64,000 bases of DNA, from NCBI GenBank assembly GCA_017306865.1, contig JAFKHH010000012.1:248001-312000 (forward strand), in the 5' to 3' direction. The DNA comes from Filimonas sp. (GTDB lineage: Bacteria; Bacteroidota; Bacteroidia; Chitinophagales; Chitinophagaceae). This document shows, piece after piece, positions 7,134-9,459 of this stretch (within the stretch, counting starts at the first letter, position 1; each line of letters begins with the position of its first letter). The notes under the pieces were generated by a model. That model searched no databases, was not told the origin of the DNA, and was given only the letters and a program-made list of their open reading frames with translations. A program made the position numbers and the translations under genes.

Positions 7134-8165
7134 TTATTTGTAAAAAGCGTTCCAGCCCTGCGCTGTTATGTCAAATGTATTACCACCTTTGGTAATGATC
7201 TTGCGTCCCTCTTCTTCTTCCGTAATATAACCAATCACTGCAATCTCTTCATTCAGCGTCAGCTTATCGTATTCCTCTTGTTTCAGTGTGAAGACAAGTT
7301 CATAGTCCTCGCCGCCATTCAGTGCGCAAACGGTAGGATCAAGCCCAAACTTGAATGCAGCAGCTCTTGTGCGCTCATCTATCGGCAGCTTCTCCTCATA
7401 AATTCTGCAGCCTACATTGCTTTGCCTGCAAATATGCAAGATCTCACTGCTCAGTCCATCGCTTACATCCATCATAGCGGTCGGCACTATTTCATGCTGC
7501 GCAAGAAACTCAACGATGTCTTTGCGTGCTTCCGGCTTCAGGAGTTTGCCTACTATGTAATCTTCGTTTTCCAGGTCTGGCTGTACCTGCGGATTTTCCA
7601 TATAGATCTTCTTTTCCCTCTCTAACAAGGTAAGACCAAGGAATGCGCCGCCAAGATCGCCACTTACACAGATCAGGTCACCTTTTTGTGCAGTACTACG
7701 CTTGACAAATTTGCCGGGCGTTACCTCACCTATAGCTGTTACTGAAATTATAAAGCCCTTCTGTGAAGCAGATGTATCACCACCGATCAGGTCTACGCCA
7801 TATTTTTCACACGCTGCATACACTCCCTCATAAAACTCGTCCAGCGCCTCCAGGCTAAAGCGGTTGCTGATACCAATGCTCATGGTGATCTGCGTAGGCG
7901 TGGCATTCATTGCATATACATCGCTCAGGTTCACTACCACACTTTTATAGCCCAGATGCTTCAGGGGTGTGTACATCATATCGAAGTGGATGCCCTCGAT
8001 CAGCAAATCGGTTGTAATCACCGTTTGCTTACCAAAATGATCTATCACTGCCGCATCATCACCTACACTCAATACGGTAGATGAGTTTTGTATTTCAAAA
8101 TTTCTCGTTAAGTGATCGATAAGCCCGAATTCACCAAGAGATGATATTTCTGTTCTTTGCTCCAT
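7134..8165 (-). CDS. thiL: Thiamine-monophosphate kinase
   Basis: ThiL phosphorylates thiamine monophosphate to the cofactor thiamine diphosphate with ATP. The 343-residue length is normal for the family. Motifs of the AIR-synthase/ThiL fold are present in order: the N-terminal GDDAAVID, LIEGIHF, the metal-binding LSDVYAMNATP, LIGGDTSAS, the nucleotide-binding VSGDLGGAFLGL, MMDVSDGLSSE and the C-terminal NGGEDYELVFT. The fused E1 dehydrogenase elsewhere in the window would use the product. The start codon lies 12 nt from the left arm of the inverted-repeat cassette, so its promoter was either brought by that cassette or lies within it or upstream of it. Confidence 0.97.
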   Translation of the reverse strand: MEQRTEISSLGEFGLIDHLTRNFEIQNSSTVLSVGDDAAVIDHFGKQTVITTDLLIEGIHFDMMYTPLKHLGYKSVVVNLSDVYAMNATPTQITMSIGISNRFSLEALDEFYEGVYAACEKYGVDLIGGDTSASQKGFIISVTAIGEVTPGKFVKRSTAQKGDLICVSGDLGGAFLGLTLLEREKKIYMENPQVQPDLENEDYIVGKLLKPEARKDIVEFLAQHEIVPTAMMDVSDGLSSEILHICRQSNVGCRIYEEKLPIDERTRAAAFKFGLDPTVCALNGGEDYELVFTLKQEEYDKLTLNEEIAVIGYITEEEEGRKIITKGGNTFDITAQGWNAFYK

Positions 8166-8177
8166 AATTTTCTTTTT

Positions 8178-8651
8178 ATGTACGATGTCAGATGTACGAT
8201 GTAAAATCGCAAAAGCAATCCTATTCCCTCGCCTTATTTATTGTAGCAACAATTATCTTCAAAAGTTCTTCTCCGTCTTTGTGCATTTCTTGAATCTGCT
8301 TGAGGTGACGTTTATTGAACTCTTCTAATAATTCAAGGAATAACAGGCTCTCATCTAACTCTTCTTCGACAATTTTTAATTTATTTATAAAATCTGCTTT
8401 CGACTTAGCACGTCTCACAGCTCTGTAATTTGCCGCGACTGAACTACTCGAACGTATTATTTGATTGGTGTACGCCCTATTGATGCTATTAGCATCTAAA
8501 CTGAGCGTAAGGTGGCCGATATTGATGGCAAAGCGTTTAGTCCTTGCCTTCATTTCTTCAGCGTTCATAGATTAGGTATATTTTAGGGATTGAGCTGATC
8601 TATTCATCATACGATCAATGTACACTACATCGTACATCTAACATCGTACAT
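8178..8651. mobile_element. Inverted-repeat-bounded cassette carrying a four-helix-bundle (S23/IVP-type) gene
   Basis: Two 26-nt arms, 8178-8203 and 8626-8651, are inverted copies that match at 25 of 26 positions. Each is itself a near-tandem duplication of GTACGATGT. They enclose exactly one gene, the four-helix-bundle protein at 8221-8568. The right arm ends on the first base of the inositol-monophosphatase stop codon and the left arm stops 12 nt from the thiL start, so the cassette fills the whole gap. Transcribed, the arms could form a long stem closing the mRNA like the processing stem of 23S rRNA intervening sequences. No target-site duplication is obvious and there is no transposase, so mobility is inference. 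Confidence 0.45.
8221..8568 (-). CDS. Four helix bundle protein (23S rRNA intervening-sequence protein family)
   Basis: A 115-residue all-helical protein of the S23/IVP family, the fold also shared by the Avd accessory protein of diversity-generating retroelements. Family landmarks are readable: RTKRFAINIGHLTLSL near the N-terminus, then IIRSSSSVAANYRAVRRAKSKADFINKLKIVEEELDES, represented here by its SSVAANY and DFINKL cores, and a helical LLFLELLEEFN. Members often lie inside excised 23S rRNA inserts or as orphan genes; the molecular role is unclear and nucleic-acid binding is suggested by the basic surface. No rRNA or reverse transcriptase is nearby. It sits in the loop of a 26-bp inverted repeat (8178-8651). 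Confidence 0.9.
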   Translation of the reverse strand: MNAEEMKARTKRFAINIGHLTLSLDANSINRAYTNQIIRSSSSVAANYRAVRRAKSKADFINKLKIVEEELDESLLFLELLEEFNKRHLKQIQEMHKDGEELLKIIVATINKARE

Positions 8652-9427
8652 TATAACGTTCCTCCATTCACCACATCCAACAGCGCCCCATGTATTTTTC
8701 CATTCGTAGCGCAGATATGCGGCTGATATGGACTGTAATAGTCTCCTTTAAAATCTGTTACTGTTCCACCGGCTTCTTCTACGATCAGGAAGCCTGCTGC
8801 GCTATCCCATGCCTGTAACTTATGTTCATAAAAGCCATCAAAACGTCCGGCAGCTACCCAGCAAAGATCAATAGCCGCACTACCCAGGCGTCTTACAGGT
8901 ATACCCTTACGGATCAGTTTATCAAAAACCTGCAAAGGTCCGTTCGGCGCATCAAGATACGTATAAGGAAACCCGGTTACCAGGCAAGCTTTATCCAGGT
9001 CAGTCTGTTCACTTACATTTATTTTTCTATCATTCAAAGAAGCGCCAAATCCTTTTTGCGCAAAGAACAATTCGTTGATAAATGGATTGTACACCGCACC
9101 CAGGATCATTTCACCATCCTTTTCTATGCCAATACTAACGGCACAGATAGGAATATTGTTCGCGTAGTTCACTGTTCCGTCTATCGGATCGATGATCCAT
9201 TTATAGGTAGAGTCCTGCGCCAGCTCACCAGCTTCCTCACTTAAAATATAATGAGAGGGAAAATCCTGTTTAATAACATCGATAATAACCTGCTCGCTTT
9301 TATGGTCAACTTCTGTAACAAGATTATTTACGCCCTCTTTATTCGTAACGACAAACGGCTTGTCAAAATATTCTTTAAGAACTACCGCCGCGGCTTCAGT
9401 GGCTTTAAGTAAGGTTTGTTTAAGCAT
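8651..9427 (-). CDS. Inositol monophosphatase family protein
   Basis: A Mg-dependent sugar-phosphate phosphatase of the IMPase/SuhB/CysQ group. The 258-residue protein has the canonical metal motifs: SEEAGE near residue 65, WIIDPIDGTVNYANN near 82 and the C-terminal WDSAAGFLIVEEAGG near 208. Substrate (inositol-1-phosphate, 3'-phosphoadenosine phosphate or another) cannot be chosen from sequence. I start at the ATG 9427; an upstream TTG at 9433 lies inside the -7 box and is unlikely. The promoter sits directly against this ATG, suggesting a leaderless transcript. The stop codon overlaps the inverted-repeat arm at 8651. Confidence 0.93.
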   Translation of the reverse strand: MLKQTLLKATEAAAVVLKEYFDKPFVVTNKEGVNNLVTEVDHKSEQVIIDVIKQDFPSHYILSEEAGELAQDSTYKWIIDPIDGTVNYANNIPICAVSIGIEKDGEMILGAVYNPFINELFFAQKGFGASLNDRKINVSEQTDLDKACLVTGFPYTYLDAPNGPLQVFDKLIRKGIPVRRLGSAAIDLCWVAAGRFDGFYEHKLQAWDSAAGFLIVEEAGGTVTDFKGDYYSPYQPHICATNGKIHGALLDVVNGGTL

Positions 9428-9430
9428 GCG

Positions 9431-9459
9431 CAAAGATAATAAGTTTCAAAAGTTTGCAA
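9431..9459 (-). promoter_or_regulatory. Consensus promoter abutting the inositol monophosphatase ATG
   Basis: On the minus strand TATCTTTG occupies 9438-9431, with TTG at 9459-9457 18 nt further upstream. Only CGC separates the -7 box from the ATG at 9427. Transcription starting 4-7 nt after the box would begin at the start codon. Confidence 0.65.

Follow-up and report, generated by a model that had tools for sequence, protein, structure and literature searches.

Why does a small gene of the IVP/S23 family lie between suhB and thiL, enclosed by a pair of inverted repeats, and do gene and repeats belong together? ORFs related to IVP lie in 23S rRNA intervening sequences (IVSs), the complementary ends of which are cut by RNase III (excerpts of PMC4990558). 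A reading made from the letters alone had proposed that, in the whole stretch of 64,000 nucleotides analyzed here (the window), a free-standing cassette of the same lineage may occupy a protein operon and possibly be removed from its transcript. Minus-strand order at the locus is suhB, IVP gene, thiL:

8651–9433, minus strand: suhB-like inositol monophosphatase family gene (PF00459, 2.5e-70); upstream neighbour, co-directional.
8626–8651, minus strand: upstream arm, a heptamer array reading ATGTACGATGTTAGATGTACGATGTA in gene sense; abuts the suhB stop codon.
8221–8568, minus strand: four-helix-bundle gene (IVP/S23 family), 115 aa (PF05635/TIGR02436, AF2 model, Foldseek).
8178–8203, plus strand: downstream arm, inverted copy ATGTACGATGTCAGATGTACGATGTA (repeat search).
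7134–8165, minus strand: thiL, thiamine-phosphate kinase (TIGR01379, 1.6e-97); downstream neighbour, co-directional.

The two 26-nt arms are complementary at 25 of 26 positions, as had been read from the sequence, and extend to 31 nt at 90% match in a repeat search. The unit (8178–8651, 474 bp) takes up nearly all of the 485-nt suhB–thiL gap. The claim that the arms fill this gap exactly holds on the suhB side, where the right arm does reach the stop codon and has one base in common with it, and nearly holds on the thiL side, where the unit ends 12 nt short of the ATG. In gene direction the arm is made of heptamers of the GATGTAC type (TGTACGA, TGTTAGA, TGTACGA, then TGT), and the left arm lies within two near-copies of a 14-mer, that is, an array of period 7/14. 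The 26-mer arm pattern occurs at two places in the 64-kb window, both of them the arms, against 0 expected from shuffles. Because the arms are complementary, they close the predicted fold of a 488-nt segment as its terminal stem, in the MFE and centroid structures alike (z −7.1).

The encoded protein passes the cut-offs of PF05635 (23S rRNA IVP; 6.6e-11, 42.8 bits, cut-off 33.8) and TIGR02436 (four helix bundle protein; 3.7e-19, 69 bits, cut-off 24). No nuclease domain was found in it with Pfam and NCBIfam, the matches being IVP/four-helix families and two hypothetical-protein models. An AF2 monomer model predicts four helices (mean pLDDT 97.7), for which Foldseek gave as closest structures 2rld (BT_0352; TM on query 0.80–0.86) and 2gsc (XCC0516; 0.80–0.85); 2rld was the sole significant match when a sequence profile was compared with structures. 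Weaker Foldseek matches to Avd in the ribonucleoprotein of a diversity-generating retroelement (8ub7, chains C and E) and to free Avd (4dwl) reached TM 0.74–0.77 on the query, with E-values of 0.09 or worse and 11–12% identity, a likeness to Avd in the fold of the predicted model; no reverse transcriptase was found among the direct neighbours identified of IVP genes. The 2rld structure holds five chains, and the Xanthomonas protein XCC0516 is described as a ring-shaped homopentamer, or torus, in excerpts of PMC4990558, according to which the IVP/S23 family has structures and no known function. Codon divergence indicates purifying selection on the IVP ORF in the pairs compared: dN was 0.007–0.142 in 16 close pairs, and dS was 0.115–3.19 in 15 of them (some saturated) and undefined in one. 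A core of DFINKLKI plus EEE.DE is invariant across 30 aligned IVP proteins, inside which lies one of the scan peptides that retrieved these 30.

The arms of the window have many relatives in its 6.15-Mb genome (G000). Their pattern, class 1, has 159 copies (87 + 72) at up to 3 mismatches, the window's two included, against 0 matches for a reversed-pattern control. The median distance to an ORF end is 6.5 bp for thirty mismatch-free arms, taken as the first thirty of the match list with no random draw; these arms are directed towards the spacer, and 21 of them lie at gene 3′ ends. A non-coding inward pair of class-1 arms enclosing 16–202 nt was present in 19 of 21 regions read; the contents of these pairs are unrelated, except for five pairs with common repeat fragments, and several enclose what look by eye like terminator hairpins. 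Among 100 of the 159 copies inspected by eye, inward pairs within 700 bp numbered 18, one of them the window's, and outward pairs 0. Arms alone are common in this genome, and bracketing by itself is therefore no proof of a cassette there. Further copies of the 474-bp unit, which the sequence-only reading had suggested looking for, did not appear: the gene occurs once in the genome (protein search), and the class-1 copies read are arms around unrelated spacers. A transposon copied whole was rejected for class 1 on the single protein copy and the mostly unrelated interiors of the 19 arm pairs. Movement of class-1 arms by a RAYT was likewise set aside, class-1 arms being absent within 1.5 kb of all four Y1_Tnp genes identified there; action in trans stays a candidate.

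Four PF05635 genes were found in this genome, all between co-directional genes of core operons and all bracketed by inverted arrays, each of a different family. Matches were counted with search patterns taken from the arms themselves:

suhB–thiL IVP arms: GATGTAC; 159 pattern matches, control 0, mismatch limit 3.
hisA–hisF IVP arms: GATTTGA-type; 257 pattern matches, control 0, mismatch limit 2.
hemD–hemE IVP arms: ATTCACG-type; 175 pattern matches, control 0, mismatch limit 2.
sdhA–sdhB IVP arms: octamer; 292 pattern matches (overlapping matches in two long octamer arrays included), control 2, mismatch limit 3.

Arm complementarity at hisA–hisF, hemD–hemE and sdhA–sdhB exceeded that of all 1000 random segment pairs in each case, the upstream arm at sdhA–sdhB having been found by eye and then scored; the IVP gene at this last junction has an in-frame stop. 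A fifth family, GAAGTAC, has 64 matches, none perfect, and such arms enclose none of the four IVP genes, so that an array family need not come with one of these genes. Long octamer arrays, (AATTGTTT)n, at C1:397138–397270 and C29:127361–127429 of G000 resemble in class the arms of the sdhA–sdhB IVP gene. Spacers of this genome also look layered by eye (L002–L031, for example L005 and L006), with GATGTAC, GAAGTAC and CGCAAAGG-type repeats adjoining in one spacer.

Similar arms flank IVP genes in other genomes. Our first set was made up of the best 80 of at least 492 relatives, the window and two family members, and gave 80 loci with usable flanks; since L061 and L090 apparently represent the same locus and some of the species are closely related, these loci are not independent, and all counts given are of loci rather than of independent events. 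Within 300 bp of the gene, 52 of the 80 loci have an upstream and 41 a downstream heptad tract of the expected polarity, compared with 2 and 3 of opposite polarity; 33 loci had expected-polarity tracts on both sides, 60 on at least one side and 20 on neither, and a single locus had the wrong polarity on both. Elsewhere in the same loci, 10 heptad tracts occurred in 403 kb, or ~1 per 40 kb. Over 118 tracts, the median array length was 31 nt, equal to 4.4 heptads, with the commonest bin at 4.0–4.5; a fixed number of five per arm is unsupported. A strict TACGA motif proved too narrow as an arm definition and was complemented by a motif-free test of matches at a fixed lag (threshold 15/21 at lag 7), which led to the period-8 arms described below. 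Lag 7 passed in 55% of upstream and 68% of downstream flanks of the 80 loci, against 4% of 498 background segments, and lag 14 in 46% and 44%, respectively; the remaining lags from 3 to 13 passed in at most 1 of 80. The inverted-repeat score of the flanks averaged 31.7, compared with 22.6 in each of two controls, direct repeats and swapped loci; few loci (6/82) lie above the 99th percentile of the swapped-locus control because loci have motifs in common.

A second set of 37 loci from whole genomes (E ≤ 1e-25), at least four of which (L161, L162, L164, L165) are apparently first-set loci, gave lag-7 signals upstream in 21 and downstream in 18 loci, with 0 of 222 background segments. Four of its members (L181, L183, L187, L195) have lag 8 as the best lag on both arms, with 7 of these 8 flanks over threshold. 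What look by eye like tRNA genes occur in the IVP flanks of L187 (both sides) and L193 (upstream); cassettes may sit among tRNA genes too. In 198 Bacteroidota genomes, strict heptamer matches were found in 17 of the 34 that have an IVP gene of the clade versus 22 of the 164 that lack one (Fisher 9e-6), an association partly due to the arms themselves. All four strict matches in one 4.2-Mb genome (G103) flank its IVP gene. Four other genomes (G175, G181, G189, G154) have 5–17 strict matches and no clade IVP at E ≤ 1e-25; their heptamers could be orphan families or belong to more distant partners.

The junctions occupied in 83 loci were mostly suhB–thiL (19, the double locus included), hisH–hisA (15) and hisB–hisH (12), followed by argE–argH (5), mraY–murD (5), proC–argE (3), ftsW–murG (3) and others. 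Representatives of HisB, HisH, HisA, MraY, ArgH, ProC and MurG pass NCBIfam cut-offs, “argE” denotes an ArgE/DapE-family protein below these cut-offs, and murD, ftsW, lepA, folD and an xdh pair were named from reading the sequences. On the IVP tree, a quick tree of 120 columns with many forks open, junction labels cluster (28 changes versus 55.4 when shuffled), which argues that IVP residents are long-lived at a junction; at suhB–thiL, at least 3 changes fall on starred branches.

Residence is patchy. We surveyed suhB–thiL in 59 relative genomes, 57 with a thiL match, and read the best 30 loci, the window's included. suhB is not beside thiL in 7 of these, and the pair is present in 22 other genomes, of which 2 carry an IVP gene (53 and 55% identical to the window's), 15 have a gap of 0–61 nt (with a partial suhB match in L064) and 5 have a gap of 113–341 nt with no IVP match. 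Empty suhB–thiL sites were thus looked for, found and common. The gap in L047 holds heptamer-like repeats and no gene; that in L048 (G009), of 225 nt, holds by eye another inverted repeat, of the GTCATCCCGAGGAACGAGG type, and no IVP match. A similar survey of lepA–folD covered 59 Algoriphagus genomes, the best 30 loci of which were read: 16 carry an IVP gene of lineage A, 9 one of lineage B (33–37% identical to A) and 5 none, the IVP-less gaps measuring 14, 91, 269 and 288 nt and one having N in place. In three loci (L198, L199, L200) the neighbours are nearly the same (lepA, for the part within the locus, 99.4–100% identical; folD 96–100%), yet the IVP genes are 100, 35 and 72% identical: L198 carries lineage A, L199 lineage B and L200 another member of lineage A, and the arms differ from one locus to the next. 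At least two TACGA motifs occur in 15/16 lineage A and 2/9 lineage B loci, and at least three B-type motifs in 9/9 lineage B and 0/16 lineage A loci. In several lineage B loci, by eye, A-type heptamers persist outside the B arms, as if nested.

Loci were then classed by the variable pair of bases in GAxxT. The upstream and downstream arms have the same class in 36 of 51 loci, versus 13.8 when shuffled (maximum 24 in 10,000 shuffles). Classes TG, AG and TT change 6 times on the IVP tree versus 24.9 when shuffled (minimum 19 of 200), in a count of 62 loci that leaves out rarer classes and untyped loci, and 2 versus 6.4 times within suhB–thiL alone (n = 15). TT is the class of 7/8 loci at mur junctions and of 0/30 at his junctions, of which 28 were typed. 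Sequence comparison therefore argues strongly that heptamer class goes with protein lineage, even inside one junction. Pairing of the two arms appears selected in some lineages: permutations scored as high in 4 of 5000 cases for Algoriphagus lineage A and in 0 of 5000 for class AG, which supports selected pairing, while support is weaker for TT (128 of 5000) and TG (231 of 5000). Selected pairing was contradicted in Algoriphagus lineage B, for which 4755 of 5000 permutations scored as high and the two arms of a locus score no higher together than swapped arms do (30.4 versus 34.3).

IVP genes mostly follow the sense of their operons. With co-directional neighbours, the first set has 74 genes in sense and 0 in antisense, besides 4 mixed loci and 5 with one side missing, and the second set (37 loci) has 31 in sense, 3 in antisense and 3 mixed; co-direction is common anyway, applying to 156 of 183 other ORFs in these loci and to 18 of 43 in the window.

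We consider it probable, at roughly 60%, that the feature is an exchangeable intercistronic “IVP cassette”, mostly inserted in sense, with a pentameric protein that recognises its own arrays and arms that base-pair in the transcript. Such a cassette would comprise one four-helix gene between inverted arrays of ~4–5 heptamers, or octamers in some lineages. That gene and arms form one unit is well supported by comparison of loci, since the arms recur far above background, their class follows protein lineage, and the unit differs or is absent in close relatives. The proposal of a free-standing cassette of IVP lineage in a protein operon has accordingly gained from the empty sites, from gene and arms differing jointly between close species, from an arm class that tracks the protein tree, and from a like anatomy in other genomes at ten junctions with at least two loci each. 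Loss of the arms at a conserved locus, which would have counted against this proposal, was looked for: the arms mostly persist as such, while their heptamer class changes, and does so on both sides.

We infer recognition of the array by the protein, cleavage of the RNA and a route of movement as further steps. The ring protein TRAP reads triplets, with one repeat per subunit. An IVP ring would similarly recognise its own heptamer array with one subunit per repeat, as a relative is a homopentamer and the arrays have 4–5 repeats. In the polycistronic RNA, the two arms would form a long stem that closes the cassette, in the manner of 23S IVS ends, and this stem would let the cassette be cut out or insulated with its neighbours unharmed. 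The same recognition would let arms spread in trans as non-coding spacer copies, as REPINs do with RAYTs.

The alternative that fares best, although we regard it as unlikely, is a domesticated regulator, in which a TRAP-like IVP protein would bind arrays in many 3′-UTRs and in its own leader and the cassette would not be mobile. This would suit the 21 of 30 examined arms at gene 3′ ends in the window's genome, the long residence at junctions within clades and the purifying selection, and Beggiatoaceae heptamers near start codons have been proposed as regulator sites (excerpts of PMC4679880). However, cassettes differ between species with 99–100% identical lepA stretches, and patchy presence, empty junctions and unrelated operons are better suited to an exchangeable element.

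Still less probable, in our view, is that the locus is an IVS of a protein operon and nothing else, a passive insert with an RNase III stem for arms and no recognition of repeats. The likeness to a 23S rRNA IVS is considerable, as it includes a PF05635 protein, a similar size (474 versus 428 nt for the Coxiella IVS), complementary ends, insertion in a presumed transcribed unit and patchy presence with empty sites; related ORFs lie in IVSs cut by RNase III (excerpts of PMC4990558), and the mostly sense, intercistronic location and the predicted terminal stem are compatible with this explanation. On the other hand, an RNase III stem needs neither a 7-nt period nor a link between class and lineage, and both are strong; moreover, the cassette ORF is under purifying selection, as far as divergence in the pairs measured indicates, whereas the ORF of the Coxiella IVS is reported to be decaying (excerpts of PMC4990558). 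The cassette also differs in its location between protein genes, suhB and thiL in the window, in its ends, which are inverted arrays of 7–8-nt repeats linked to protein lineage, and in the dispersal of related arm families. Since it lies outside rRNA, we do not file it as a 23S rRNA IVS.

Coincidence, with heptamer repeats filling spacers and the IVP gene merely lying in one of them, is very improbable: arms near ORF ends (median 6.5 bp for the first 30) and 19 non-coding pairs with mostly unrelated contents speak for it in the window's genome, but tracts number ~1 per 40 kb away from the gene, against 60 of 80 loci with an expected-polarity tract on at least one side of it, all four IVP genes found in that genome are enclosed by arms, every one by those of another family, the four strict matches of G103 are all at its IVP gene, and class follows protein.

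Several observations fit an exchangeable IVP cassette less well, namely the 20 of 80 loci without an expected-polarity motif tract on either side, the arms without a gene in the window's genome, the GAAGTAC family without an IVP gene, the arms of lineage B, which match no better than swapped ones, and antisense cases in 3 of 37 second-set and 2 of 10 plasmid loci. The cassette is akin to REPIN/RAYT systems, in which one protein goes with one dispersed inverted repeat layout (excerpts of PMC3116915), in that one protein gene accompanies a numerous family of short repeats, arranged as inverted doublets in spacers, with several families per genome, each around its own protein gene, as in G000. 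It differs from them in that its gene is PF05635 and no Y1 transposase, the four Y1_Tnp genes being apart from class-1 arms, and in that its arms are tandem heptamers and no REP palindromes. Taken strictly, the cassette belongs to neither group, rRNA IVSs or REPIN/RAYT.

The data link the IVP/S23 family, which has no known function, to heptamer repeats that were without a known binding protein, and tie repeat class to protein lineage; this gives an initial hint of the protein's role. Intergenic heptamer repeats have been described in Beggiatoaceae, Cyanobacteria and five Bacteroidetes, their binding protein being unknown at description (excerpts of PMC4679880). The TAACTGA and cyanobacterial repeats of that study share with ours their nature of intergenic tandem heptamers in Bacteroidota and Cyanobacteria; however, they are described as direct repeats, mostly near start codons, whereas the cassette has its arrays in inverted orientation, with an IVP gene between them. 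The main text of that study contains none of the terms “S23”, “intervening sequence” and “four-helix”. “Alien” genes between Bacteroidota his genes have been noted, without IVP identification in the main text (PMC8305728), a Flavobacterium columnare table has guanylate kinase, four helix bundle protein and nicotinate-nucleotide adenylyltransferase adjoining (excerpt of PMC5524665), and 23S_rRNA_IVP ORFs are reported in rRNA inserts of CPR bacteria (excerpts of PMC11270868). We found no report of IVP genes in inverted heptamer arrays in the titles and abstract beginnings of the open-licence papers listed, which are part of those matched. If the protein binds its own heptamers in preference to those of another lineage and the message is cut at the arms, an element would reside within operons of core biosynthesis (his, arg, mur, hem, sdh, thi) and leave them unbroken, with a bearing on operon evolution, mRNA processing and mobile elements. 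More tentatively, and with somewhat less than even odds, these loci may represent a cross-phylum class of elements, of which we found no earlier description in the literature searched: IVP rings would read their own 7–8-nt code, the gene would travel between operon junctions within mirrored arrays, seeding hundreds of non-coding arrays, and rRNA IVSs would be a derived branch. Such a class would provide a partner for the heptamers of Bacteroidota and cyanobacteria and a biochemical role for the S23/IVP family.

As for carriage by other replicons and hosts, 50,697 phage records yielded one weak partial match and an E. coli collection none. Eleven plasmid records have an IVP relative, and ten loci were examined, with the IVP gene in sense in 7, antisense in 2 and mixed in 1. 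Lag 7 is the best lag on both sides in 9 of the 10 (raw scores 15–21, without a background set): seven cyanobacterial, two of these nine being Planktothrix, one from Chloroflexota and one from Bernardetia. The tenth has a 40-nt inverted repeat, and arm complementarity is weak in L231 and L232 (IR 22 and 20). In six plasmid loci (L228, L230, L231, L233, L234, L237; five cyanobacterial, one Chloroflexota) the IVP gene lies beside defence genes, the neighbours including drmD with pglX or an MmeI-like gene, csx2 with cas1, and DUF1156 with a Swt1-type HEPN gene; one plasmid IVP gene lies between cas2 and cas1, antisense to both. All six defence-adjoining IVP genes have period-7 arrays on both sides.
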